Shown: piece by piece, positions 23,534-37,090 of the stretch
Numbering within the stretch: position 1 is the stretch's first letter
How the letters are laid out: each line of letters begins with the position of its first letter
From: Candidatus Nitrosopumilus sp.
Lineage (GTDB): Archaea > Thermoproteota > Nitrososphaeria > Nitrososphaerales > Nitrosopumilaceae
Direction of reading: 5' to 3'
Length of the DNA stretch: 37,354 nt
NCBI GenBank assembly: GCA_020431995.1
Contig: JAGQHE010000026.1
Location: 1-37,354, forward strand
Position numbers and translations under genes: made by a program
The notes under the pieces: model-generated
The model's database searches: none
What the model was told of the DNA's origin: nothing
What the model saw: the letters and a program-made list of their open reading frames with translations, nothing else

Positions 23534-23742
23534 TTTTTTTAATCTAATGACATTGCTTTTTAGATTTAAATCTAGCAATGATCCCGAGTGGTTTTTGTCT
23601 AATGGATAATAATTTTCAAGGCGTAGACTCGCTGTTGCCCTGTCTGATTCTCTGACAACTGCCAGAATTTCAGATTTCCTCTATGGACTGTTTTTCATTT
23701 CTTTATGTCAAGCTAATATCCTACTTTGGCAATAATACGACT

Positions 23743-24615
23743 ATGGTAGACACAACAAAGATGATGGAAAAATTTCTTCTCAAGTTTGCAAAGCAATGGA
23801 TCGCAGGAGATGACATTGATGACGCACTAATATCTGCAAAAGAAGCATACAAAAACGGCAGACATGCAATAATCAATAAACTCGGAGAATATCACAAAAC
23901 TAAAGATCCAATAGAAAAGACCATCATTGAATATGATAAGATAATCTCATCATTTAGAAAATGGAAGGTAAGGGGTGCTATATCTGTAAAACCCACACAG
24001 GTTGGCATGTCGATTAATAACACAACATGTCTAAACAGTTTCGAGAAACTAATTAATTCAGCATCAAACTCGCACGTGTTTGTATGGATTGACATGGAGT
24101 CATCCGAGCACACAGATGACACAATTCAGCTATATTATGACTTGTTTTCCAGATACGAGAGATTAGGAATTGCAATTCAGGCCAATCTAAAGCGAAGTAT
24201 CGATGATGTGAATGATCTCATCAGGCACGGCGCAAAAATCAGAATCGTAAAGGGTGCGTATAGAGAAAACGGTAGGATTGCATACAAAACAAGAGAGGAA
24301 GTAGACCAAAATTTTCTAAAAATCATGAAGTTGCTGTTCAAAGACGCAAACGAATTTGGGATCGCAACTCATGATTCAAAATTAATTGATGATGCTATTT
24401 CCTTATCAAAAAAACACCAGAAAAAATTTGAGTTTCAGTTACTAAAAGGAGTCAGAGATAAACTAAAACCGGATCTTGTAGAACAAGGATTCATAGTGTC
24501 AGACTACATTCCATATGGAACTAATTGGCTCCCTTACTCAATCCGGAGACTGCGTGAAAGAAAGAGAAACATTTTTCTTTTGGGAAGCTCGTTCATTCAA
24601 TCGCACAGAGTTTGA
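23743..24615 (+). CDS. Proline dehydrogenase
   Basis: The product is a 290-residue FAD-dependent TIM-barrel enzyme of the PutA/ProDH family: VFVWIDMESSEHTDD, GIAIQANLKRSIDDV, HGAKIRIVKGAYRE, FGIATHDSKL, FEFQLLKGVRDKL and YIPYGTNWLPYSIRRLRER, where paired arginines bind the proline carboxylate. It oxidises proline to pyrroline-5-carboxylate and passes electrons to the respiratory chain. A longer frame begins at 23683, but those 20 residues are hydrophobic and uncharacteristic, so the ATG at 23743 is preferred. Its 3' end overlaps the convergent dehydrogenase gene for the next step by 19 bases. Confidence 0.88.
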   Translation: MVDTTKMMEKFLLKFAKQWIAGDDIDDALISAKEAYKNGRHAIINKLGEYHKTKDPIEKTIIEYDKIISSFRKWKVRGAISVKPTQVGMSINNTTCLNSFEKLINSASNSHVFVWIDMESSEHTDDTIQLYYDLFSRYERLGIAIQANLKRSIDDVNDLIRHGAKIRIVKGAYRENGRIAYKTREEVDQNFLKIMKLLFKDANEFGIATHDSKLIDDAISLSKKHQKKFEFQLLKGVRDKLKPDLVEQGFIVSDYIPYGTNWLPYSIRRLRERKRNIFLLGSSFIQSHRV

Positions 24616-26162
24616 GTTTGGGATCTCATAAATTGTTGCAAGTAATGTTCCCCACCAGCTCCTTTTCCGGTTATGCCGGAACTTTTCCAACCAACAAACG
24701 GTTGACTTTGCACAAGAGCAGCAGTGGTGGCACTAGACGCCCTGTTTGCGTACACTGTTCCTGCTTGAATTTTTTCAAAGAACCTGCTTATCTGGTTTTT
24801 GTCCTCTGAAAAAATTCCTGCAGTCAGGCCATATTCAGATTTGTTTGCTAGTGCAATCGCTTCATCAAAATCGTCATATTTGTCAATGCACAAAAAAGGC
24901 AAAAACAATTCATCAGTTACAAGCTTGTGGTCTTTTGGAAGATCAGTAACAATGGTTGGTTGAACAAAATAACCATTCTCATATTCAGAATCTGTAATTT
25001 TATTTCCACCAAAAATTATCTTACCGTCTTTTTTTGCAAGATTGACGGCATCTTCAAATTTTGATACCGACTCATTATTGATTACTGGACCCAAAAATGT
25101 TTCACGATTCCAAGGCATTCCGATCCTTAACGAAGTACTTTTTTCAATAAGTTTCTCAAGAAAATCCTGAAAAATCTCCCTTTGCACATAAACTCTAGAG
25201 CATGCACTGCATTTTTGTCCTCCAAACCCAAATGCTGCATGCATAATACCTTCAGATGCCTTATCCAAATCTGCATTTTTTGTAACAATTACGGGATTTT
25301 TTCCACCCATTTCGGCAATGAACGGTTTTGATGTTTTCTCAGTAAACTTTTTGAAACCAGACATCCCAACCACCTGCGAGCCAGTAAACGCAATTCCATC
25401 AACATCATTGCTTTCAATGAGTGTCTTTCCAACAACATTTCCATCACCTGTTACAAAATTGATTGAGCCTTTAGGTATCTTGTTCATTATGGAATCTACA
25501 AAGAAGTATGAAGAAAGAGGAGTAGTGCTGGCCGGTTTTAGTACGGCAGTGTTCCCTGTAAGTAATACGCCACTAGTCATTCCAATTGCTATTGCAGAAG
25601 GAAAATTAAACGGCGCTATTATTCCCCAAACACCATAGGGTTTTAGAACTGTACTTGTCTTTTCATGAGGGTCTGGGTGATGTGTTTGTTTACAGAATCC
25701 CTCATTTTTCTCAAGTTGAAATGAATAAAATCTCAAAAAATCTATGGCTTCGTCAACGTCATTCATTGCCTCGATCCTGGTCTTTCCGTTCTCAAAGGAC
25801 ATCCAAGCTGCTAACTCAAATTTGATTTTAGAAAACTCATTTGCAGTTTCTTTGAAAATTTTAGATCTTTCTTTGTAATTCGTTTGACTCCATTCTGAAA
25901 ATGCATTTCTTGCAGAATCAATTGCACTTTCTGTTTGAGATTCATCAAGCTTTGGAAATGTGGCAAGAACAAGTCGTGTATCAGAAGGAGATCTTACCTC
26001 AAATGTATTGTCAGAATACATTTTTTCTCCATTGATAACACATGGGTATTTTTTTCCAAACTGTTTTTTTATGGTTTCTAGAGCATTTTCATAATTTTTA
26101 TGAAATTCTGTTTCTCCTCCTCTTGATACCGCATGCCCCCAAGTGTATTCGTTTTCAAACAT
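24597..26162 (-). CDS. 1-pyrroline-5-carboxylate dehydrogenase-like aldehyde dehydrogenase
   Basis: This 521-residue aldehyde dehydrogenase has a P5CDH-like N-terminus (YPCVINGEKMYSDNTFEV), KPYGVWGIIAPFNFPSAI, the NAD site IAFTGSQVVGMSGF, catalytic Glu in EMGGKNPVIV, and catalytic Cys318 in GGQKCSACSRVYV. It also has FLGPVINNES and the C-terminal QPFVGWKSSGITGKGAGGEHYLQQF region expected for P5C dehydrogenases. It converts glutamate semialdehyde (from P5C) to glutamate with NAD. The pairing with proline dehydrogenase on the opposite strand completes proline to glutamate. The ATG at 26162 is supported by a TATA box about 25 bases upstream. Confidence 0.88.
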   Translation of the reverse strand: MFENEYTWGHAVSRGGETEFHKNYENALETIKKQFGKKYPCVINGEKMYSDNTFEVRSPSDTRLVLATFPKLDESQTESAIDSARNAFSEWSQTNYKERSKIFKETANEFSKIKFELAAWMSFENGKTRIEAMNDVDEAIDFLRFYSFQLEKNEGFCKQTHHPDPHEKTSTVLKPYGVWGIIAPFNFPSAIAIGMTSGVLLTGNTAVLKPASTTPLSSYFFVDSIMNKIPKGSINFVTGDGNVVGKTLIESNDVDGIAFTGSQVVGMSGFKKFTEKTSKPFIAEMGGKNPVIVTKNADLDKASEGIMHAAFGFGGQKCSACSRVYVQREIFQDFLEKLIEKSTSLRIGMPWNRETFLGPVINNESVSKFEDAVNLAKKDGKIIFGGNKITDSEYENGYFVQPTIVTDLPKDHKLVTDELFLPFLCIDKYDDFDEAIALANKSEYGLTAGIFSEDKNQISRFFEKIQAGTVYANRASSATTAALVQSQPFVGWKSSGITGKGAGGEHYLQQFMRSQTQTLCD

Positions 26163-26180
26163 ACGAATAGTTAGTACTTG

Positions 26181-26192
26181 TTGAATTTAAAG
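26181..26192 (-). promoter_or_regulatory. TATA box of the P5C dehydrogenase gene
   Basis: On the minus strand CTTTAAATTCAA is centred about 25 bases before the ATG at 26162. A near copy, CTTAAATTCG, lies at 27121-27130 inside the 5' end of the ureohydrolase gene, which may be that gene's promoter if the shorter start is used. Confidence 0.5.
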
Positions 26193-26200
26193 TGGTGATA

Positions 26201-27154
26201 TTATTTCATTGATGAGATCACTTCGCCAAAAATCCTGGATGCTAAGTGTGATGTCCTGTTGTTTACATCAAATGGTGGGCATACTTCAACAATGTCCATG
26301 CCTATAATCCCCCTGCTTGCAATTTTTTTCAAAATAAATGCGGCATCAACACTGGATAGGCCAACTGGAACAGGCACCGAAACACCAGGTGCATGTGAGG
26401 GATCTATACAATCCATATCAAATGATACGTAGACAAGTTCTCCTAACATGTCCAGAACCTCCTGAGATATTTTTGATATACCTTTTTCTGCAATGTCAAA
26501 TGGCGAGATTACGGTGATTTTATGCTCTCTTAGATTGTCAATCTCTTCTTTCTCAGGCGTCCTTATTCCAATCTGCATGCTAGTCTTTGTGTCTATGGAT
26601 TCTAAAACATCGCCAAAAACAGAGCCATAGTAATTTTTTGTAGATGTTACAAAGTCAGGATGGGCATCAAAATATACTAGAGATATCTTTTTGGACAAAT
26701 TTTTTGATAGTTGTCTGATTATTGCGGCGCTCATAGAATGGTCACCCCCAATCGAAATAGGGATCTTCAAATCGGTGTAAATCTTGTCAAAGATTTCTGG
26801 AATTTGATTCCTTGCAATATTCCCATAGTCAAAAATATTTTTTGAAATCCAATTTGTAGGATAGCCCGTGAAGGTTTGATCATTTCGTTTGTACGTGTCT
26901 GCCAGATTTGAAATTTTTCTAATCTGATCAGGGGCTTTTGATGTTCCCTCTCGAACAGAATGCGATTGTGATTCATCTGGAATTCCAATTATGACTACAT
27001 CACTATTATCGTAGTCAGAGTTTGCCCAACAAATTTTCTCCATATTTCTTGGAATGTCAAACAAGAATAATAATTTGTTTAAGGTGTATCTGTCAGCGTA
27101 TCTCATCGACGCATTACGCTTCGAATTTAAGTCATAAGAAGAAAGCACAATCAT
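26201..27154 (-). CDS. Ureohydrolase (agmatinase/arginase/formiminoglutamase superfamily)
   Basis: The 317-residue product carries the complete binuclear-metal signature: GGDHSMS, YFDAHPDF and SFDMDCIDPSHAPG, followed by MDIVEVCPPFD. These enzymes hydrolyse guanidino groups with release of urea, or formimino groups. The specificity loops are not diagnostic. The usual DAHxDx follow-up differs (DAHPDF), so agmatine, arginine, guanidinobutyrate and formiminoglutamate are all possible. Proximity to proline and P5C oxidation favours a role in arginine-family catabolism. The start is unclear: the frame begins at ATG 27154, with alternatives at 27106 (MRYADRY) and 27043. It is tandem with the P5C dehydrogenase, 38 bases upstream of it. 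Confidence 0.85.
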   Translation of the reverse strand: MIVLSSYDLNSKRNASMRYADRYTLNKLLFLFDIPRNMEKICWANSDYDNSDVVIIGIPDESQSHSVREGTSKAPDQIRKISNLADTYKRNDQTFTGYPTNWISKNIFDYGNIARNQIPEIFDKIYTDLKIPISIGGDHSMSAAIIRQLSKNLSKKISLVYFDAHPDFVTSTKNYYGSVFGDVLESIDTKTSMQIGIRTPEKEEIDNLREHKITVISPFDIAEKGISKISQEVLDMLGELVYVSFDMDCIDPSHAPGVSVPVPVGLSSVDAAFILKKIASRGIIGMDIVEVCPPFDVNNRTSHLASRIFGEVISSMK

Positions 27155-27245: not shown

Positions 27246-27734
27246 CTAATTCATACTTGTCTCTATTTTTTCAATTTTTGAGTTACTAATAACCGAAACT
27301 TCTTCGTCAAATTTTTTATTTGGAATCAACATCAATCTTGAATCATCTAACTCTACAATTGTTTTTGTTAGGCCAATTTGAATTATTGTTCCAAGTTTAT
27401 TATCAAATTCAATCTCACTTCCTACATTTATTCTTCTTCCTAATGCAATACTCATACCAGAAATTGCATTTTGTAGTTTATTTAGATATACAAATGTAAA
27501 AAATAATAATATTGCACTAAGTGATGTGACAACTTCTATTGCTGGGGATAAAATCTTCAACGTTGCTGATAGATACATTACTTCTGCTATTGTAATTATG
27601 ATGAAAATCACGCCTGTTGCCTTGCCTGAGCCCAGTAATGTTCTAAATTTTGTAAATTCGACTACTTTGATCATGATGAAAACTATCGAAGTAATGACAA
27701 TCGAAATAACTGCAAATAGCATATTGCTTTCCAT
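27246..27734 (-). CDS. Small MscS-like mechanosensitive channel protein
   Basis: The 162-residue product has three hydrophobic helices (about residues 3-24, 40-60 and 65-85). A pore-lining-like helix follows (FVYLNKLQNAISGMSIALGR) and then the MscS beta domain with INVGSEIEFDNKLGTIIQIGLTKTIVEL and LMLIPNKKFDEEVSVI. These fit the small MscS plan but it lacks the C-terminal alpha/beta vestibule. Such channels release solutes on hypo-osmotic shock. It is divergent from the ectoine operon, matching a role in osmolyte release. It is the intact relative of the pseudogene at 17244-17727. Confidence 0.8.
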   Translation of the reverse strand: MESNMLFAVISIVITSIVFIMIKVVEFTKFRTLLGSGKATGVIFIIITIAEVMYLSATLKILSPAIEVVTSLSAILLFFTFVYLNKLQNAISGMSIALGRRINVGSEIEFDNKLGTIIQIGLTKTIVELDDSRLMLIPNKKFDEEVSVISNSKIEKIETSMN

Positions 27735-27841
27735 CTTTTCAATTTATTTTAAAATGAATAAAAGAATCTGTATCATTACTAGCTGAATTTCAATACGTTT
27801 GTTGACAAAAGATTAACTAATTGATTTTCCAAAAATCTTCA

Positions 27842-28219
27842 ATGACTAAAAACGAAGACATGGTAAGAGATCTTGCAACTAACTTTCAAACTAAAGGACT
27901 AGAAATTATATCTGCAAAATGTAATGGTTTTACGGAACCTGTTGAGGTTCAAGGAGTTACACCTGATGTCATTGGATGGGATTCTGAAAAAGAAGTATAT
28001 CATTTAGGAATTGTTGCTGATTCGGAAATCATCTCTGATGATTCCACCAAAGAAAAAATGCAAGTATTGGCAAAAATGGCTATGGGCGTTGGGCCTTCTC
28101 AAGGTAAACGTCTGCCCTTTTATGTTGGAGTTACCAAAGATGCAAACACTATTGCTGATGAAAAACTAGAAGAAATCGACAATATCTCTAGAGAAAACAT
28201 AGAAAAAATTCTGATTTAA
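27842..28219 (+). CDS. Unknown protein leading the ectoine operon
   Basis: The 125-residue alpha/beta protein starts MTKNEDMVRDLATNFQTKG. Its centre reads GVTPDVIGWDSEKEVYHLGIVADSEI, followed by a helix with KEKMQVLAKMAM. A PD followed by an acidic residue and a strand is faintly like the PD-(D/E)xK nuclease fold, but the lysine is not in the right place, so no enzyme activity is claimed. A TTG-initiated longer frame from 27821 would add seven residues; the ATG at 27842 is preferred. It ends five bases before ectA, so it is very probably cotranscribed with ectABCD. Confidence 0.7.
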   Translation: MTKNEDMVRDLATNFQTKGLEIISAKCNGFTEPVEVQGVTPDVIGWDSEKEVYHLGIVADSEIISDDSTKEKMQVLAKMAMGVGPSQGKRLPFYVGVTKDANTIADEKLEEIDNISRENIEKILI

Positions 28220-28224
28220 CTGGT

Positions 28225-28728
28225 ATGTCTTCAATAATTTTTAGAGAACCATTAGTTAGTGATGCTGATTCTATATGGAGTTTAGTAAATTCTAATCCAC
28301 CGCTTGATGAGAACTCGAAATATCTCTATGTTCTGTTATGTCATCAATTTTCAAAAACATGTGTAGTTGCAGAATTTGATTCCAAAATAGTTGGATTTCT
28401 TTCAGGCTTTATTTCTCCAAAAAATTCTGACACTCTTTTTGTTTGGCAGGTAGCTGTGGACAGTGAGTTTAGAAACCAGGGAGTTGCAAAAGAACTTGTC
28501 TTTAAGGCATTATCTCAAACCGATTCTGCTGTGCAATTTGTTGAGGCCACAGTTACTCCTTCTAACAAGACTTCGTTGAGATTTTTACAGAATTTTGCAT
28601 CTGATCTTGATACTACTTTTACAAAATCATCCTTATTTCCAACTGAAATCTTGGAAAATGGGCACGAACCTGAGGATCTGATTAGAATTGGCCCGATTCA
28701 AAAAAATCTTTTGGAGGTTACAGCATGA
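28225..28728 (+). CDS. ectA: L-2,4-diaminobutyrate acetyltransferase EctA
   Basis: This 167-residue GNAT acetyltransferase reads FREPLVSDADSIWSLVNSNPPLDENSKYLYVLLCHQF at its N-terminus, which is diagnostic of EctA (the NPPLDxNSxYxYxLLCxHF pattern). The acetyl-CoA loop EFRNQGVAKELV and VEATVTPSNKTSLRFLQNFA follow. It acetylates 2,4-diaminobutyrate to N-gamma-acetyl-diaminobutyrate, the second step of ectoine synthesis. The stop overlaps the ectB ATG by four bases. Confidence 0.93.
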   Translation: MSSIIFREPLVSDADSIWSLVNSNPPLDENSKYLYVLLCHQFSKTCVVAEFDSKIVGFLSGFISPKNSDTLFVWQVAVDSEFRNQGVAKELVFKALSQTDSAVQFVEATVTPSNKTSLRFLQNFASDLDTTFTKSSLFPTEILENGHEPEDLIRIGPIQKNLLEVTA

Positions 28729-30020
28729 AGCAGATTAATGCTATTGAATCTCAAGTAAGATCCTATTGTAGATCTTATCCAGTAATGTTTGAAAAAGCAA
28801 AAGGTCCATTTCTTATTGATCATGACGGAAAAAAATATTATGATTTTTTATGCGGTGCCGGCTCATTAAATTATGGACATAATAATCCTATTTTAAAAAA
28901 AGAGATTATTGATTATTTGAATCAAGACGGAATAACACATAGTTTAGATCTTGCTACAAAGTCCAAAGAAGATTTCTTGAATTCTTTCTCAAAAAATATT
29001 TTAGCAATTAGACATCTGAATTACAAAGTACAGTTTACGGGGCCTACGGGTACAAATGCAGTAGAAGCAGCACTAAAGATTGCAAGAAAAGTTACTGGCA
29101 GAACTAACGTCATCTCATTTACAAATGGTTTCCATGGGGTTACGTTAGGCTCTGTAGCTGCTACGGGAAACAGTCATCATAGAGGTGGTGCAGGCACATC
29201 TCTAAATGACGTTACCTTTATGCCCTATGACGGTTACATGGGAAAGAAAATCAACACAATTGATTATCTACGACGTGTATTGGAAGATAATAGTAGTGGT
29301 GTAGATATTCCGGCTGCAGTTATTTTGGAAACAATTCAAGGTGAAGGTGGAATTAATATTGCCAGTTCCAAATGGCTTCAATCCTTACAAGATCTTTGTC
29401 ATGAATTTGGAATTCTGATGATTGTGGATGATATTCAGGTAGGATGTGGACGTACAGGTACCTTTTTCAGTTTTGAAAGTGCAGGAATCGAACCTGATCT
29501 GGTAGTGTTGTCAAAATCTCTAAGCGGTTTTGGATTGCCTTTTTCATTACTTCTGATAAAACCCGAATTTGACAAATGGAAACCTGGTGAGCATAATGGG
29601 ACATTTAGGGGAAATAACCTGGCTTTTCTCACCGCTAAAACTGCCATTGATCATTTTTGGACAACTCAGGAATTAGAGGCAGGAATAGCCCTCAAATCCA
29701 ATATATTAAAAACTAGACTTGAGCAAATTGCTAAAGAAAATCTTTCCTCAGAGATCGAAGTCCGTGGAAAAGGCATGGTTTATGGAATTGATTGTATTTT
29801 AGAAGATCTTGCAAGTGCAATTCAACAAAAATGCTTTGAAAATAGTTTGATTCTTGAAACATGTGGGTCTGATGATCATGTTGTCAAACTCCTTCCTGCT
29901 TTGACTATTGCTGAAAATGAATTGAGAGGAGGACTGGATATTTTAGAGAAAAGTGTTAAACAAGTAATGAGTAAATCTGACTTTCAGAAAAAACTTGAAG
30001 ATGAGACTGTTCAAAAATGA
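28725..30020 (+). CDS. ectB: Diaminobutyrate-2-oxoglutarate transaminase EctB
   Basis: The 431-residue class III PLP aminotransferase has FTGPTGTNAVEAALKIAR, FTNGFHGVTLGSVAATGN, VDDIQVGCGRTGTFFSFE and VVLSKSLSGFGLPFSL with the PLP lysine at Lys264. These blocks match EctB. It makes 2,4-diaminobutyrate from aspartate semialdehyde and glutamate, the first step of the pathway. It overlaps ectA upstream and ectC downstream by four bases each (ATGA type), showing tight translational coupling. Confidence 0.94.
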   Translation: MKQINAIESQVRSYCRSYPVMFEKAKGPFLIDHDGKKYYDFLCGAGSLNYGHNNPILKKEIIDYLNQDGITHSLDLATKSKEDFLNSFSKNILAIRHLNYKVQFTGPTGTNAVEAALKIARKVTGRTNVISFTNGFHGVTLGSVAATGNSHHRGGAGTSLNDVTFMPYDGYMGKKINTIDYLRRVLEDNSSGVDIPAAVILETIQGEGGINIASSKWLQSLQDLCHEFGILMIVDDIQVGCGRTGTFFSFESAGIEPDLVVLSKSLSGFGLPFSLLLIKPEFDKWKPGEHNGTFRGNNLAFLTAKTAIDHFWTTQELEAGIALKSNILKTRLEQIAKENLSSEIEVRGKGMVYGIDCILEDLASAIQQKCFENSLILETCGSDDHVVKLLPALTIAENELRGGLDILEKSVKQVMSKSDFQKKLEDETVQK

Positions 30021-30421
30021 TAGTACGAAACATTGAGTCTTTTAGAGGAACAGAACGACAAATTGATTCAGAAAATTGGTCTAGTACTAGACTTCTTTTG
30101 AAAGATGACAAAATGGGTTTTTCATTTCATGAAACGATTCTATATCCTGATACTGAAACTAAAATTTGGTACAAAAATCATCTTGAAGCAGTATATTGTG
30201 TTGAAGGAATTGGAGAAATACAAGAAGATGATGGGACCAAACATAACATAAATCCTGGAACAATTTATGCATTGGACAAACATGAAAAACATATGCTTAG
30301 AGCATTTTCTAAAATGAAAATGATTTGTGTATTTAATCCACCACTAGTTGGACCTGAAACACATGATTCTGATGGAGTATACCCATTATTGATATCGGGA
30401 GAAAACAATGTCTCAAAATAA
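30017..30421 (+). CDS. ectC: Ectoine synthase EctC
   Basis: This 134-residue cupin begins MIVRNIESFRGTERQIDSEN, has the metal-binding WYKNHLEAVYCVEGIGEI (Glu near residue 57) and YALDKHEKHMLRA, and ends near ICVFNPPLVGPETHDSDGVYPLL. These are EctC signatures. It closes N-gamma-acetyl-diaminobutyrate to ectoine. The length matches the family. It overlaps ectD by 14 bases. Confidence 0.95.
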   Translation: MIVRNIESFRGTERQIDSENWSSTRLLLKDDKMGFSFHETILYPDTETKIWYKNHLEAVYCVEGIGEIQEDDGTKHNINPGTIYALDKHEKHMLRAFSKMKMICVFNPPLVGPETHDSDGVYPLLISGENNVSK

Positions 30422-31328
30422 GTTTGAGATGGATTTTTATCCTACAAGAACAGGACCTGAATCAAAAATCATCTCAAGAACAGATCCTGTCGTATATTCT
30501 GATTCTTATGACGAACTTTCAAAAGAACAAGCGGAATTTTTTGAAAAAAACGGTTACTTAATCTTTGAAGATCTGTTTTCTTCTGACGAAGTAAGTACAT
30601 TGTTTGATGAACTTACTTCTCTTACGCATGACGAAACAAAAAGAGATATGCCTCAATTCATCTTAGAAGAAACAACAAGAGACGTGCGTTCAATTTTTGA
30701 AATTCATAAAATTAGTGAACTTTATGGCATGCTTTGTAGAGATAAAAGAATTCTAAACATAGCCCAACAACTCTTAAGAGGTAAAACATACATACATCAG
30801 TCAAGAGTTAATCTAAAACCAGGATTTGATGGTAAAGAGTTCTACTGGCATTCAGATTTTGAGACTTGGCACTCTGAGGACGGTATGCCAAAAATGCGTG
30901 CCGTATCATGTTCTATCATCTTAACAAAAAACTATGAGTTTAACGGACCCTTGATGGTAATTCCTGGCTCGCATAAGGATTTTGTCTCATGTAGTGGGAA
31001 AACACCTGATGAACATTATAAACAATCGTTGAAAAGACAAGAAATAGGAACGCCAGATAAAGAAATTTTAGAAAAAATGGTTGCCAAAAATAAGATCGTA
31101 TCAGCAAAGGGAGGTGCAGGTTCTGTGATATTTTTTGATTGTAACATCATGCATGGCTCAAATGGCAACATCACACCTTATCCCAGAAGCAACGTATTTT
31201 TTGTTTACAATAGTATTTACAACAAACTAGTTAAGCCATTTTGTGGTTTGGACCCTAGACCTGAGCATATTGCAGACAGGGAGTTTTTGCCTCTTGAGCC
31301 AGTGAACAATTTTCTTGAGTCAAGTTAG
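30408..31328 (+). CDS. ectD: Ectoine 5-hydroxylase EctD
   Basis: This 306-residue non-heme Fe(II)/2-oxoglutarate dioxygenase shows the iron triad as HSDFETWH (His148, Asp150) and FFDCNIMHGSNGNITPYPRSN (His249), with the 2-oxoglutarate-binding arginine in the latter. The region QSRVNLKPGFDGKEFYWHSD holds residues known to line the ectoine pocket of EctD. It makes 5-hydroxyectoine. It completes ectABCD on one transcript. A T-rich stretch follows from 31329. Confidence 0.94.
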   Translation: MSQNKFEMDFYPTRTGPESKIISRTDPVVYSDSYDELSKEQAEFFEKNGYLIFEDLFSSDEVSTLFDELTSLTHDETKRDMPQFILEETTRDVRSIFEIHKISELYGMLCRDKRILNIAQQLLRGKTYIHQSRVNLKPGFDGKEFYWHSDFETWHSEDGMPKMRAVSCSIILTKNYEFNGPLMVIPGSHKDFVSCSGKTPDEHYKQSLKRQEIGTPDKEILEKMVAKNKIVSAKGGAGSVIFFDCNIMHGSNGNITPYPRSNVFFVYNSIYNKLVKPFCGLDPRPEHIADREFLPLEPVNNFLESS

Positions 31329-32109: not shown

Positions 32110-32286
32110 CTATTCACTCTTTCTAAATCGTTTTTTGTATTCTTTGGTTAGGAGGATATGAAAAGGAGTGTATTCTAAATTATCAAAAAATATTTTAAGT
32201 TGACAATCTGAAAGAGATCTTAGATATGCTTTGATGTTTTTTTCACATGTGACATAGGGCTTATCAGGATCAAATAACTTCTCCAT
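32110..32286 (-). CDS. 58-residue small protein under the CTTATGAA promoter element
   Basis: The minus-strand frame reads MEKLFDPDKPYVTCEKNIKA, then YLRSLSDCQLKIFFDNLEYTPFHILLTKEYKKRFRKSE, ending in TAG. It is basic at the C-terminus with two cysteines. No family is recognised. The start ATG (32286) has a good TATA box at 32328-32340 and the shared AGCTTATGAA element at 32318-32327, so expression as a protein is well supported. Confidence 0.65.
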   Translation of the reverse strand: MEKLFDPDKPYVTCEKNIKAYLRSLSDCQLKIFFDNLEYTPFHILLTKEYKKRFRKSE

Positions 32287-32317: not shown

Positions 32318-32340
32318 TTCATAAGCTGATATATTTAAAA
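32318..32340 (-). promoter_or_regulatory. TATA box plus AGCTTATGAA element, copy 1
   Basis: On the minus strand TTTTAAATATATC (32340-32328) is followed at once by AGCTTATGAA (32327-32318), which lies 31 bases before the ATG at 32286. The same arrangement occurs in front of three other minus-strand genes in the window. Confidence 0.6.
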
Positions 32341-32353
32341 TACAATTTTGAGC

Positions 32354-32533
32354 TTATGATAATACCGTGTCTATCATTCTCCTGTTGAGAAAGCTGTATG
32401 ATAATTCTTTTTGATTAGTGTTTTTTCTGCATTTTTTGCAAATTACAGACTTTATTTTAACATCTAATTCTATCTCACCAACTGCCTTTCCACATTCTGA
32501 ACATTTTACTATTTTTTTATCATAAAGATTCAT
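32354..32533 (-). CDS. 59-residue zinc-ribbon protein
   Basis: The frame reads MNLYDKKIVKCSECGKAVGE, then IELDVKIKSVICKKCRKNTN and a basic tail SYSFLNRRMIDTVLS. Two CxxC pairs (CSEC and CKKC, 21 residues apart) form a classic zinc ribbon, probably for nucleic-acid or protein binding. The ATG (32533) is preceded by a TATA-like TTATTATAAGC and the AGCTTATGAA element at 32569-32578. Confidence 0.7.
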   Translation of the reverse strand: MNLYDKKIVKCSECGKAVGEIELDVKIKSVICKKCRKNTNQKELSYSFLNRRMIDTVLS

Positions 32534-32568
32534 TTCTATTTTGTATGGAACTACAAATTACATAAAAA

Positions 32569-32594
32569 TTCATAAGCTTTCAAGCTTATAATAA
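32569..32594 (-). promoter_or_regulatory. TATA box plus AGCTTATGAA element, copy 2
   Basis: On the minus strand TTATTATAAGC (32594-32584) precedes AGCTTATGAA (32578-32569), 35 bases before the ATG at 32533. Here the element is also half of a perfect 8-bp inverted repeat, ATAAGCTT-TC-AAGCTTAT. Confidence 0.6.
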
Positions 32595-32657
32595 CAAAAT
32601 CACTTGAAAATATTCTGAATTGCTGGTTATGGATTCTTAAAATTGTGTTTAAGATAC

Positions 32658-33038
32658 TTATTTTTTTAATATTTTTTCGAATAATAATATTGTACTGTTT
32701 GCAATTGGATCACAATTCTCATTTGGTTCAACAGTAATTATGATTACGTGATCAAATATGGGAATAGTTATCATATTTATTTTTGTTCTATGACTGACAT
32801 TATATTTTAATAAACCAATTTCATTGTCAAAATCTTTTTCAAATAAAATCGATAATACCGATTTAATATATAATGAACGTGATTTGTTATCTGATATTGA
32901 TAGTTTGAGATTCTTCTGTTCTTTTTCAAATATCAGGTTACCCATCTTGTCTAAGATTCCAACATATCTTATTCCTTTGTTTGCAAGAAGGATGTTACAT
33001 GCATAGTCAAATAATTTTGGAATAATCTGTGTGGACAC
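32658..33038 (-). CDS. Roadblock/LC7-like small protein, second copy
   Basis: The 126-residue product is a relative of the protein at 13582-13977: IRYVGILDKMGNLIFE matches IRFAGLLDENGSILAG, and IGLLKYNVSHRTKINMITIPIFDHVIIITVEPNE matches LGHVKYSASRREHVVIMSFPIYEKVVMIVAESN. The start is GTG at 33038. The CTTATGAA element and a TATA-like sequence lie just upstream. The function is unknown; the fold suggests a dimerisation or signalling adaptor. An N-terminal cysteine (FDYACNILL) is not shared. Confidence 0.68.
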   Translation of the reverse strand: MSTQIIPKLFDYACNILLANKGIRYVGILDKMGNLIFEKEQKNLKLSISDNKSRSLYIKSVLSILFEKDFDNEIGLLKYNVSHRTKINMITIPIFDHVIIITVEPNENCDPIANSTILLFEKILKK

Positions 33039-33060
33039 TAACTAATTATGTTGATTCAAA

Positions 33061-33079
33061 TTCATAAGTGTAATTAAGC
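33061..33079 (-). promoter_or_regulatory. TATA-like sequence plus CTTATGAA element, copy 3 (variant)
   Basis: On the minus strand GCTTAATTA (33079-33071) precedes ACTTATGAA (33069-33061), 22 bases before the GTG at 33038. It differs from the other three copies at the G of AGCTT and is the closest to its start codon. Confidence 0.5.
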
Positions 33080-33144
33080 TGTTTTTGTTAATTTCAGCTA
33101 ATTTTTTCATTAGATCTAATGTAATTCTAAAATTAAATCATAGC

Positions 33145-33360
33145 ATGACAAAATTACAACAGCTTCAACAACTAGTTGAAGAAAAAGGTGAGCTGATGGT
33201 TATGTCAGATACTGGTGAAAAATTTGAACTTCACAAACACAATGTAAAATTTGATGATTCCTCAGATCTGATAGGAATTGATGGTGATACAAAGAAATTT
33301 TGGTTAATTCTATCAAAGATTACATACTGTTGGACACATGACAAAGCCAGGGAAGAATAG
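33145..33360 (+). CDS. 71-residue uncharacterised soluble protein
   Basis: The frame from ATG 33145 reads MTKLQQLQQLVEEKGELMVM, then SDTGEKFELHKHNVKFDDSS and a C-terminal KKFWLILSKITYCWTHDKAREE. It has an N-terminal helix followed by a small beta sheet. An in-frame TTG at 33085 would add 20 residues that look unlike a coding start. No family is recognised. Its 3' end faces the FilR1-like regulator. Confidence 0.6.
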   Translation: MTKLQQLQQLVEEKGELMVMSDTGEKFELHKHNVKFDDSSDLIGIDGDTKKFWLILSKITYCWTHDKAREE

Positions 33361-33380
33361 TCCCAAGGCTTGTTTAACAA

Positions 33381-33401
33381 TGAATGGTTGCATGCCATTC
33401 A
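33381..33401. terminator. Hairpin between convergent genes
   Basis: TGAATGG (33381-33387) pairs perfectly with CCATTCA (33395-33401) around a seven-base loop. It lies in the 78 bases between the stop codons of the 71-residue protein and the regulator on the other strand. T-rich sequence follows on the plus strand. It could end transcripts from both sides. Confidence 0.35.
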
Positions 33402-33438
33402 AGACATATTATTTTATTTAATCTGACAATTTTTTAAC

Positions 33439-34236
33439 TTATTCTTGTAATTTGAATTCCTTGAAAGGATCAGATGAATTCCAACAATATTTGAAATAAT
33501 CTGAACACCACTCCCTAAATGATTCGTCTTGACTGTAAAACATTGAACGAAGATCTGGTTTTCCACTCAAATCCGGAAACATTAAACCTGCAGATTTTTC
33601 ATTGATTATTACAGAGATTTGAACAGTGTTTAACATGCGCCTCTGAATTTTCTCCGCCTTTAGTAATGGATAAAAACCAGATTTTTCGAGTAGTTTTTTT
33701 CTACCCTTAGGAATGCTTGCGTTTTCTGATATGATATGACGATATTTTGTTCCACGTTTGACACGTTTTATCATCAACTCAATCAAATCAAGAGGTGTTT
33801 CATCTAATACATTGAAGATATACTCATCTGCTGAGCGATAGATTTTCTTCCATGTTTCAAGCACTTTGGAAACCCCTATAATTTCTTGAGAATCACTTAG
33901 ATCTCCTATTCGTCTTAGAAACTTTGGTGGTAGGTTCCCAAACCCATGGGTTGTCAGATATTTCTTGTTTTGAGAAAGAAATGAGACTGAGTAAATTTGA
34001 GTACAAATAGTTCTCCCAAAAGTGGTTAATCCGTAACTGTTGTCTTCTTGTTTAATGATTAACCCTGTATTTACCATGCGTTCAAAATTTCGATGGATCT
34101 CCTGAGCAGTCACGTTAAATTTTTTTGCCATCGTAGTAACTCTAGATGGTTTTTTAATCAAATCAAATAAAATTTTCAGTCTTACCTCGCTGGCTAACTC
34201 TAAAAATTCAGCAGATATATTTTCAAAATCAATCAT
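33439..34236 (-). CDS. Winged-helix regulator with a FilR1-like sensor domain
   Basis: The 265-residue product has an N-terminal ArsR-like winged helix (LASEVRLKILFDLIKKPSRVTTMAKKFNVTAQEIHRNFERMVNTGLIIK) and then a helical linker. The C-terminal domain (about residues 115-260) includes YIFNVLDETPLDLIELMIKRVKRGTKYRHII and FREWCSDYFKYCWN. This resembles the FilR1/DUF1724 sensor domain of methanogen and other archaeal regulators. The ligand is unknown. A 16-bp palindrome near its own promoter (34277-34292) suggests autoregulation and possibly control of the divergent CDGSH gene. Confidence 0.75.
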   Translation of the reverse strand: MIDFENISAEFLELASEVRLKILFDLIKKPSRVTTMAKKFNVTAQEIHRNFERMVNTGLIIKQEDNSYGLTTFGRTICTQIYSVSFLSQNKKYLTTHGFGNLPPKFLRRIGDLSDSQEIIGVSKVLETWKKIYRSADEYIFNVLDETPLDLIELMIKRVKRGTKYRHIISENASIPKGRKKLLEKSGFYPLLKAEKIQRRMLNTVQISVIINEKSAGLMFPDLSGKPDLRSMFYSQDESFREWCSDYFKYCWNSSDPFKEFKLQE

Positions 34237-34276
34237 ACTGATTACTTTTTTTTATCATTAAAAACATTTTATGATT

Positions 34277-34292
34277 AATTTCCAAGGAAATT
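34277..34292. promoter_or_regulatory. 16-bp palindromic operator candidate
   Basis: AATTTCCAAGGAAATT is a palindrome with seven-base arms around AA, lying 40 bases upstream of the regulator start on the minus strand and 87 bases upstream of the divergent CDGSH gene. Homodimeric winged-helix proteins usually bind such sites. No second copy was found in the window. Confidence 0.5.
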
Positions 34293-34379
34293 ATTAATTT
34301 AGTCACATTATAACAAACAGAGACAATTAAATCATAAAAATTAGTAATCTTTAATGAAAATTAAGCTCCAATAAGGATA

Positions 34380-34556
34380 ATGACAAATGTAAAAATCAAA
34401 GTAGAGGAGAACGGTCCCTTACTAGTAGAAGTGGATGGCAAAACAACAGTAACATTATGTAGATGTGGAAAATCACAATCTCAGCCAAGTTGTGATGGCA
34501 CTCATGCTAAAATAGCATTTAAAGCTCCCTCATCAGAAATCACTGTTACTGATTAA
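34380..34556 (+). CDS. CDGSH-type iron-sulfur protein
   Basis: The 58-residue protein has the CDGSH motif in the form CRCGKSQSQPSCDGTH, with three cysteines and one histidine to bind a 2Fe-2S cluster (mitoNEET-like, single-domain archaeal type). Such proteins take part in electron or Fe-S transfer and redox sensing. The ATG is preceded by AAGGATA, a weak ribosome-binding site. It is divergent from the FilR1-like regulator and is followed by a cupredoxin gene. A T-run (34563-34569) follows the stop. Confidence 0.88.
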   Translation: MTNVKIKVEENGPLLVEVDGKTTVTLCRCGKSQSQPSCDGTHAKIAFKAPSSEITVTD

Positions 34557-34562
34557 ACACAC

Positions 34563-34569
34563 TTTTTTT
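34563..34569 (+). terminator. T-run after the CDGSH gene
   Basis: Seven T in a row start six bases after the stop codon at 34556, fitting an intrinsic archaeal terminator. Confidence 0.45.
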
Positions 34570-34664
34570 AAAATGCATGCATGTCCTCATAAATCACTAA
34601 ACTAGCTTAAAATCACAATCATTACATACGTCAAATCAAATACTTTCAACACCAATAAAGATCA

Positions 34665-35282
34665 ATGAAAAACCAAAATGACAAATTTGGTGCAATATTG
34701 TCTATTGTAATTACTGCAATGGCCCTTGGATTTGTAGCAAGTTTAAATTCTATAAATGATGGATCAATTTCATCTCAAGGGGAAAGAGTAATTGACAGAA
34801 CTGTATCTGAACTTGAAAATGTTCCTGACAAAGTGCAAGATTTAGCATCAGAAGCTTTGGAAACTACGGATACAATCATTGAAAAATCTGATTCAGTTTC
34901 AGAAGCATTAGATATGGCATCTAATATGATTGAAGATGAATTACCTGATGTGCCAAAAGTAGTAAAACAAACAGATGGAAAATTACTAGAATTAGTATCC
35001 ATCCCACCTGAAACTGGAGTCCCTGGATGTGAATTGTCGAATTTGTGTTATCTTCCAGCGAATGCTATGATGTCACCTGGTGGTGAAGTCATATGGGCTA
35101 ATCATGACACAGTAGCACATACAATAACTTCAGGGAATCCACAAGATGGCCCTAATGGATTATTTGACAGTGGGTTACTAATGCCAAACAAAACATATTC
35201 GATGAAATTTGATCTTGCCTTTGAATATGACTACTTTTGTCTGGTGCATCCTTGGATGCAAGGCACAATAGTAGTTCAATAA
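34665..35282 (+). CDS. Membrane-anchored cupredoxin (plastocyanin-like)
   Basis: The 205-residue product has an N-terminal membrane anchor or signal (AILSIVITAMALGFVASLNS), a helical acidic stalk (about residues 40-100), and a C-terminal plastocyanin-like domain. The type 1 copper ligands are visible: His152 (VAHTIT), Cys192, His195 and Met198 (FCLVHPWM). Such blue copper proteins are unusually numerous in ammonia-oxidising archaea and are thought to carry electrons in place of cytochrome c. The helical stalk between the membrane and the copper domain is a notable addition. A T-rich run follows. Confidence 0.88.
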   Translation: MKNQNDKFGAILSIVITAMALGFVASLNSINDGSISSQGERVIDRTVSELENVPDKVQDLASEALETTDTIIEKSDSVSEALDMASNMIEDELPDVPKVVKQTDGKLLELVSIPPETGVPGCELSNLCYLPANAMMSPGGEVIWANHDTVAHTITSGNPQDGPNGLFDSGLLMPNKTYSMKFDLAFEYDYFCLVHPWMQGTIVVQ

Positions 35283-35290
35283 TTCCATCC

Positions 35291-35297
35291 TTTTTTT
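35291..35297 (+). terminator. T-run after the cupredoxin gene
   Basis: CCATCC followed by seven T starts eight bases after the stop codon, as expected for an archaeal terminator. Confidence 0.45.
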
Positions 35298-35444
35298 ATT
35301 CTATGATGTATTGGTTTAAAATTGTCAAACTCTAATTGTTATTTGATTTGTCTATGCAAATTTTTTGTACGATACAGCTCATTTGTATAATTTCAGCTTT
35401 ATATCTTATGATGTCTTATTGGTAATGATCAAGTAAAACAATAC

Positions 35445-35861
35445 ATGAACAACAAACTGAACAAATCATGTATAATTGTGGTATCTGTAGTGATTGCATC
35501 GACATTAGGTTATGGAGACGCATTGGCAGAATCTGAAATAAATCTAGTTGCTGAGAAAACTGTTTTTGAACCCTCTGCAAGAATATTTCTCACAGGTACG
35601 GTAGATCCTGAAGATGCTTTTTACGAACCAGTTTCAATCATAGTTTATGATGTGAATGGGAATGAAATAATTCATGTTAAAAGTGATGTTGACTACAATC
35701 ACTTCGCTGCATTGATAACTGGACCTTTAGGTTCTTTTGAAAAAGGAATGTATGTCATTGAAGCCTCACATGTTTCTGCAATAAACACAGCCAAAGTAGT
35801 GATTAGCATAGATGATCTAACCTATGATTTATCATTGCTAAGTAATTTGATGCCACTCTGA
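35445..35861 (+). CDS. Secreted beta-sandwich protein
   Basis: The 138-residue product has a signal peptide (SCIIVVSVVIASTLGYGDAL, then AES). One Ig- or Big-like beta domain follows: INLVAEKTVFEPSARIFLTGTV, EPVSIIVYDVNGNEIIHVKSDVD, and the closing strand GMYVIEASHVSAINTAKVVISI. The pattern (x-G-x-V followed by IxVxDxxGNxI) matches the archaeal surface-protein domains found in Thaumarchaeota. The role is unknown. It has its own upstream region with TATA-like sequence near 35400-35410. Confidence 0.75.
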   Translation: MNNKLNKSCIIVVSVVIASTLGYGDALAESEINLVAEKTVFEPSARIFLTGTVDPEDAFYEPVSIIVYDVNGNEIIHVKSDVDYNHFAALITGPLGSFEKGMYVIEASHVSAINTAKVVISIDDLTYDLSLLSNLMPL

Positions 35862-36004
35862 AATTCAATTGTAGGTATTTAGCACTGACTATCTAAATCT
35901 TGCAGTAATATGTTTGTGTATTCTCTCCTAATTTTCTAATCATTTTATGTAATACGGGGCTTGACCATTCTAATCTATATTGATTTTTCACTCAAAAAAT
36001 TATT

Positions 36005-36169
36005 TTAATACAAAAGATCATCCAATTTACCCCTCTCTAGCATTTCCAAAACAAATGATTCTATCTTGGTAATTCCACATCTAGGAAATTGTTTTCGTAG
36101 ATTATTTTTGTTTGTTATTACTATGGCATCATCAAAAACTTGGATGCTTATCTTTGGTATGTTATACAT
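36005..36169 (-). CDS. 54-residue small protein coupled to the RAM-domain gene
   Basis: The frame from ATG 36169 reads MYNIPKISIQVFDDAIVITN, then KNNLRKQFPRCGITKIESFVLEMLERGKLDDLLY. It overlaps the end of the RAM-domain gene by eight bases, so it is likely made from the same mRNA. A longer frame starts at 36199. The beta-hairpin then helix plan is plausible, but no family is recognised. Confidence 0.55.
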   Translation of the reverse strand: MYNIPKISIQVFDDAIVITNKNNLRKQFPRCGITKIESFVLEMLERGKLDDLLY

Positions 36170-36416
36170 TTTTTGTTGAGAGAACTTTAGGTGCTTCACA
36201 CATGGTAAGAATACTGCGTATATGATCTAGAGGGCGAATACTGATTAAAACAAGATTGTCGATATCTTCATGAGTGAGATTTTCTGTCTTTACAATGCAA
36301 TCATATGCGCCTATTGTGGGAACAGCTTCGGCTATGCCTGATAATTTTTGGATGGTATCTGCAACCTCGATATTTTTGTTAACCTCGCATGATAGAAGCA
36401 AAAATGCTGTTCCCAT
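36162..36416 (-). CDS. Stand-alone Lrp/AsnC ligand-binding (RAM) domain protein
   Basis: The 84-residue alpha/beta domain has TAFLLLSCEVNKNIEVADTIQKLSGIAEAVPTIGAYDCIVKTE, NLTHEDIDNLVLISIRPLDHIRSILTM. This is the RAM/ASNC ligand-binding fold (betaalphabetabetaalphabeta) without the DNA-binding half found in Lrp proteins. Such stand-alone domains bind amino acids and may act with full Lrp regulators or enzymes. It is preceded by an AGCTTATGAA element and TATA box. Confidence 0.8.
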   Translation of the reverse strand: MGTAFLLLSCEVNKNIEVADTIQKLSGIAEAVPTIGAYDCIVKTENLTHEDIDNLVLISIRPLDHIRSILTMCEAPKVLSTKNV

Positions 36417-36448
36417 TTTGGTTATTAGTAGAAAATAATTATTATGAG

Positions 36449-36472
36449 TTCATAAGCTAATTTATTTAATTT
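36449..36472 (-). promoter_or_regulatory. TATA box plus AGCTTATGAA element, copy 4
   Basis: On the minus strand AAATTAAATAAATT (36472-36459) is followed directly by AGCTTATGAA (36458-36449), 32 bases before the ATG at 36416. Arrangement and spacing match copies 1 and 2. Confidence 0.6.
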
Positions 36473-36610
36473 CAAGTGATTTGTTGATAATTTGTTCTAG
36501 GTTTTGTAATGATATTATAGGTGTTGGCCAAAAACAGAGATTTAGAGGATATGAATGAAAAAGATTAGAAAAATGGAATATTGGTAGAAGAAATTTTTCT
36601 TAAATTTGCA

Positions 36611-36924: not shown

Positions 36925-37090
36925 TAACTGATAAAAAATTTAGAGAATTAAATAACCCTCACATCAGAAAAAACTTAGGCAAACTCAACTAATTTAAGCA
37001 AATTACTGTATGTTAAACAGTAAGCTTATGTGTTGATAATAACTTTCTGAGCTGAAAACAATCTATGTAATATGACACGTATTGAATAGT

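Follow-up and report, generated by a model that had tools for sequence, protein, structure and literature searches.

A two-part promoter element and a candidate winged-helix regulator in an ectoine gene island of Nitrosopumilus

Results

The window analyzed here, a whole contig of 37,354 nucleotides (C51), belongs to a Candidatus Nitrosopumilus genome of 1.73 Mb that is 99% complete; the genus is represented by 95 genomes in our set. The features of its ectoine island are as follows.

27246-27734, minus strand: MscS-like mechanosensitive channel gene, divergent from the ectoine operon, with which it has an element in common (Pfam, site position)
27781-27808, plus strand: element of the ectoine operon (22.1 bits; 42 nt before the ATG at 27842; 9/9 orthologs; also in other genera)
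27842-31328, plus strand: putative main target operon, in which a 125-aa gene precedes those read as ectA, ectB, ectC and ectD (Pfam)
32319-32346, minus strand: element of the 58-aa gene at 32110-32286 (19.5 bits; right AGCT 41 nt before the ATG; orthologous promoters aligned)
32570-32597, minus strand: element of the zinc-ribbon gene at 32354-32533 (13.9 bits; right AGCT 45 nt before the ATG)
33072-33099, minus strand: element of the DUF6659 gene (19.2 bits; GTG start at 33038, 42 nt from the right AGCT)
33439-34236, minus strand: candidate regulator, a 265-aa winged-helix protein of HVO_A0261_N / FilR1-middle type (Pfam, tree, co-occurrence)
34604-34631, plus strand: weak element of the cupredoxin gene, ATG at 34665 (10.5 bits, near chance level alone)
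35384-35411, plus strand: element of the 138-aa gene (15.2 bits; 42 nt before the ATG at 35445)
36450-36477, minus strand: element of the RAM/AsnC-ligand-domain gene at 36162-36416 (26.0 bits; right AGCT 42 nt before the ATG)
37031-37058, plus strand: element of the gene from 37092, which is cut by the contig end (13.3 bits; right AGCT 42 nt before the ATG)

The gene read as ectC belongs to the ectoine synthase family (Pfam). The 125-aa protein (27842-28219) has no Pfam match; its gene comes first in the ectoine operon of each of the nine genomes seen. Adjoining the island are genes for proline dehydrogenase, aldehyde dehydrogenase and the arginase family (23683-27154).

The original prediction was that a ten-base word, AGCTTATGAA, is shared by the promoters of four small minus-strand genes. 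The word occurs exactly at 32318-32327, 32569-32578 and 36449-36458, and ACTTATGAA occurs at 33061-33069, all on the minus strand and all where they had been placed. Base composition predicts ∼0.15 exact copies for the window (P of three or more ∼5e-4). When one mismatch is allowed, the window count is unremarkable, as 16 of 100 shuffles reach it. Of the six exact copies in the whole genome, three are those of the window promoters and the other three lie in apparent coding sequence. Since coding and promoter copies are equally frequent, which the prediction had named as evidence against itself, the bare ten-mer does not stand as a genome-wide promoter word; the same cannot be said of the two-part element to which it belongs. 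The word is the right, promoter-proximal half of a 28-bp element. Thus, a shared promoter element is real, but the word proposed as its unit is only half of it.

In an alignment of 41 promoters, the element reads AGCTKAAWTT-N9-AGCTTAYRA, with two AGCT half-sites exactly 19 bp apart and the start codon 41/42 nt from the right AGCT. Counted over the window and 22 related loci, one AGCT follows another at 19 bp in 40 cases, at 8 bp in 19 and at 27 bp in 17, while any other spacing up to 60 bp was seen at most five times (background 1.8 per spacing); because orthologs are not independent, the Poisson P values of 3e-39, 1e-13 and 1e-11 are guides only. The register is similarly sharp. Of the 91 occurrences of AGCTTA in 491 upstream regions, 34 begin 41 or 42 nt from the start codon and 18 begin at 60/61 nt, compared with an average of 0.6 per position. 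Columns that played no part in selecting the 41 promoters are also conserved: counting from the right AGCT, A at -14 in 40, T at -10 in all 41, and TA at +14/+15. Some genes are preceded by the element in reverse orientation, at 49/50 nt. For the 58-aa and zinc-ribbon genes, AGCTTAYRA keeps a constant distance from the start codon in the promoters of orthologs, and a second AGCT lies 19 bp upstream in the former and 8 bp upstream in the latter.

The word had been described as following a TATA-like stretch and lying between TATA and transcript start; neither placement is supported. In 305 genes that lack the element, TATA-like words are most frequent 28/29 nt upstream of the ATG, and element promoters have them at the same position, together with A-rich bases at -10/-9. 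What precedes the word, the AT-rich stretch, is made up of the left half and spacer of the element; it is not conserved and lies off the -28 peak, and we rejected it as a TATA box. TATA lies downstream of the word, ∼28 nt before the start codon, and the element upstream of TATA. Given that TATA is found at -26/27 of the transcript start (PMC4158304), these transcripts should be leaderless or nearly so. By this sequence-based reckoning, the element would occupy ∼-61 to -33 of leaderless promoters and border BRE/TATA on its upstream side.

Sites in the window were scored with a position weight matrix (PWM) trained exclusively on other genomes. The best matches are at 36477-36450, 27781-27808, 32346-32319, 32332-32359 (on the opposite strand and overlapping the preceding site), 33099-33072, 37045-37018, 35384-35411, 32597-32570 and 37031-37058, and the first 27 kb of the window contain one weak match. 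The plus-strand sites at 27781-27808, 35384-35411 and 37031-37058 are additional to those noted earlier. A weaker variant of the word reported before 37091 does mark a real site, although the in-register half-site is the AGCT at 37050; another AGCT, at 37023, lies 27 bp upstream of this right AGCT. In contrast, the supposed fourth copy of the word, ACTTATGAA at 33061-33069, is a chance resemblance outside the element, as the true site of the DUF6659 gene is AGCTGAAATT-N9-AGCTTAATT at 33099-33072. Read in reverse, this site lies 49 nt before a plus-strand 71-aa gene (ATG at 33145), and the site at 27781-27808 lies 50 nt before mscS. The site of the 58-aa gene has an additional AGCT 27 bp upstream of its right AGCT, and that of the zinc-ribbon gene is the palindromic 8-bp form TTATAAGCTTGAAAGCTTATGAA, which is found identically in G057. 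The cupredoxin site has an intact left half and a degenerate right half and is supported by its register and orthologs. The shared cis element supports the regulon that was originally proposed, but not its restriction to small regulatory genes, since the ectoine/hydroxyectoine operon and mscS are included.

The whole genome was searched with sequence patterns, while the PWM was applied to the window and to loci of other genera. Six near matches elsewhere in the genome (at most two mismatches) were examined. Four are inside long open frames, a fifth is upstream of an apparent tRNA gene and the sixth lies on the border of a 156-codon open frame; the arrangement of the window is repeated at none of them. 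The near match upstream of the apparent tRNA gene (L156, G000:C110:3557-3581) has the 19-bp spacing, is out of register with any open frame and has counterparts in several congeners.

As the original prediction required, the element is kept at orthologous promoters. It precedes the ect-operon gene in 9/9 genomes, the RAM gene in 11/11 copies, the 71-aa gene in 8/8 orthologs, the 58-aa gene in 7/9 and the cupredoxin gene in 5/6. A PWM trained in one genus detects sites in two other genera, again with the ATG 41/42 nt away, and a family scan of 250 genomes, allowing one mismatch, gave 31 matches to the pattern versus 2 to the reversed pattern. An exact-pattern scan of 84,980 species genomes returned 72 stretches, of which 8 belong to this archaeal order. 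Five of these 8 have an in-register start codon (two more have one in reverse), versus 3 of the 64 elsewhere. An EctC family search found ectoine synthase in 8 of the 95 genus genomes, all of which are element-positive. Since G062, G072 and G081 carry the element and the regulator without ectoine synthase, ectoine is not the defining target.

The candidate regulator scores 29.4 bits for the HVO_A0261_N domain, below the cut-off of 35 (a clade member in G062 scores 39.1, above it), and 27.5 bits for the FilR1 middle domain, barely over the cut-off of 27 (an ortholog scores 26.1). Pfam scans of the window protein and its relatives gave no match to the TrmB domain (PF01978). In a tree, the regulator clade (clade A) is separated from a widespread paralog group (B) with support of 98/96, or 99/97 with 17 rows. 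Clade A is carried by 11 of the 12 element-positive genomes of the genus. The exception, G049, is a draft that is 81% complete and 6% contaminated, in which we found elements yet no clade A member; it is the only genome lacking clade A that has in-register sites. In the set examined, genomes with matches to our first pattern (at most two mismatches) have an in-register start codon only if they carry clade A. The P value for co-occurrence is 1.5e-13, which overstates independence because the genomes are related. In two other genera, element-positive genomes also carry clade A; it is lacking from G109 and from G103, where the only match has one mismatch. The genes ectABCD, the winged-helix gene and the 58-aa gene are contiguous, in this order, in G106 and G107, which belong to another genus. 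The regulator's own promoter lacks the element. A predicted structure of the regulator (4 rows) is poor as a whole, with a mean pLDDT of 46.5, and is usable for the winged-helix part only; no solved structural relative was found.

The window regulator is nearer to that of G106 (86%) than to those of congeners (at most 82%), with support of 96/96. It is possible that the ectoine island was transferred between genera.

Discussion

We consider it likely that the island's winged-helix protein reads the 28-bp element as its operator and activates a local stress regulon. The protein encoded at 33439-34236, probably a dimer, would contact AGCT half-sites two helical turns apart and, once bound, recruit TBP/TFB. 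Recruitment would switch on the ectoine/hydroxyectoine operon, mscS, the RAM, DUF6659 and cupredoxin genes and several small genes. As ectoine and mscS genes are among the targets, the signal is presumably osmotic stress. For TrmBL1/Tgr, sites upstream of BRE/TATA activate and downstream sites repress (PMC4158304). Since the element is also upstream of BRE/TATA, we favor activation.

It is also possible, although rather unlikely, that the same protein and element work in the opposite sense, with the protein covering the BRE and blocking TBP/TFB until the signal arrives. The right half does abut the BRE/TATA region, and related archaeal regulators can repress; however, repression by TrmBL1/Tgr involves sites downstream of BRE/TATA (PMC4158304), and this site is upstream.

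Could a paralog be the reader? Clade A and its paralogs have a common recognition helix, QE[IV]HRN. Since the helices differ so little, a B-type protein could read the element in addition to its own 8-bp palindrome, and the elements of G049 occur together with a B paralog alone. B genes also adjoin AGCT-N4-AGCT sites: in 186 kb around paralogs, the 8-bp AGCT spacing occurs 24 times and any other at most four times. However, the 19-bp spacing is not enriched in these 186 kb, and many genomes with B paralogs lack 19-bp elements, making this reading improbable.

An earlier suggestion, that a particular TFB is the reader, fares worse. A TFB paralog (307 aa, PF00382) lies in the island of several genomes with the element in its own promoter (L128:6875-7798, minus strand, L384, L386 and others), and a dedicated paralog of this kind, rather than the winged-helix regulator, might recognize the element as an extended BRE. 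However, its close form is found in only five genus genomes and is absent from G064, G012, G003, G039, G081 and the window's own genome (G000), where the best match is 38%. Absence rules it out as a general reader for the window's genome. Moreover, the element is not confined to a few bases by TATA but conserved from ∼-61 to -33, and 28 bp reaching -61 exceeds a BRE. We therefore regard a TFB reader as very unlikely. That the element is a chance word of AT-rich promoters, or a set of plain TATA variants, as the one-mismatch count in the window and the equal promoter and coding copies might suggest, is refuted for practical purposes by the spacing and register peaks and by conservation in other genera.

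Our preferred reading, activation by the winged-helix protein, has parallels in known systems. In Thermococcales, TrmBL1/Tgr with its glycolytic motif (TGM) likewise pairs an archaeal HTH regulator with an operator that is repeated in many promoters and lies upstream of BRE/TATA when activating, and the regulator gene is near some targets (PMC4158304). The TGM is an inverted repeat, TATCAC-N5-GTGATA, whereas here AGCT half-sites are 19 bp apart; the target genes differ, and the candidate regulator does not match the TrmB domain. FilR1/HVO_A0261-type regulators (PF08350, PF25213) resemble the candidate in domain make-up, and the literature searched yielded no description of the operator, targets or signal of their thaumarchaeal members. 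EctR is, like the candidate, a winged-helix regulator linked to ect genes. It is a bacterial MarR repressor of ectoine genes that recognizes two 8-bp half-sites with 2 bp between them (PMC5924519), whereas the ect-linked candidate here belongs to a non-MarR family, and a Pfam scan detected no MarR-family gene at the ect operon or among its neighbors.

The element is undescribed in the literature that we found, which covers few subscription papers and probably not the primary report on the N. maritimus ectoine genes. Nor did the literature searched name a regulator or operator of ectoine synthesis for ammonia-oxidizing archaea. The element and regulator would be a first candidate control system for the ectoine salt response of these organisms. 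Now that the DNA target is exact, the candidate regulator named and its genes listed, salt-stress control becomes testable in globally abundant nitrifiers, and around ten uncharacterized small genes gain functional leads.

Finally, the paralogs hint at a wider scheme. Paralog genes are accompanied by GGTMAGCT-N4-AGCTKACC palindromes, which often precede starts by 41 or 61 nt and which genomes lacking clade A have as well. Together with the common helix, this suggests that one half-site is read by one helix and that spacing decides which family member binds. We tentatively propose that an expanded family of thaumarchaeal winged-helix paralogs with one helix and an AGCT half-site separates its targets by half-site geometry, locked at ∼-41/-61 of leaderless promoters. 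If so, the 19-bp tandem would belong to the ectoine-island clade and the 8-bp palindrome to the widespread paralogs. The palindromes are found by B-type genes at L197, L202-L212, L191, L192 and other paralog loci, and the gene that they precede by 41 or 61 nt is often one of 49 aa (MKTQQISNWD) or a small one whose product begins MRIDSCRKCG.
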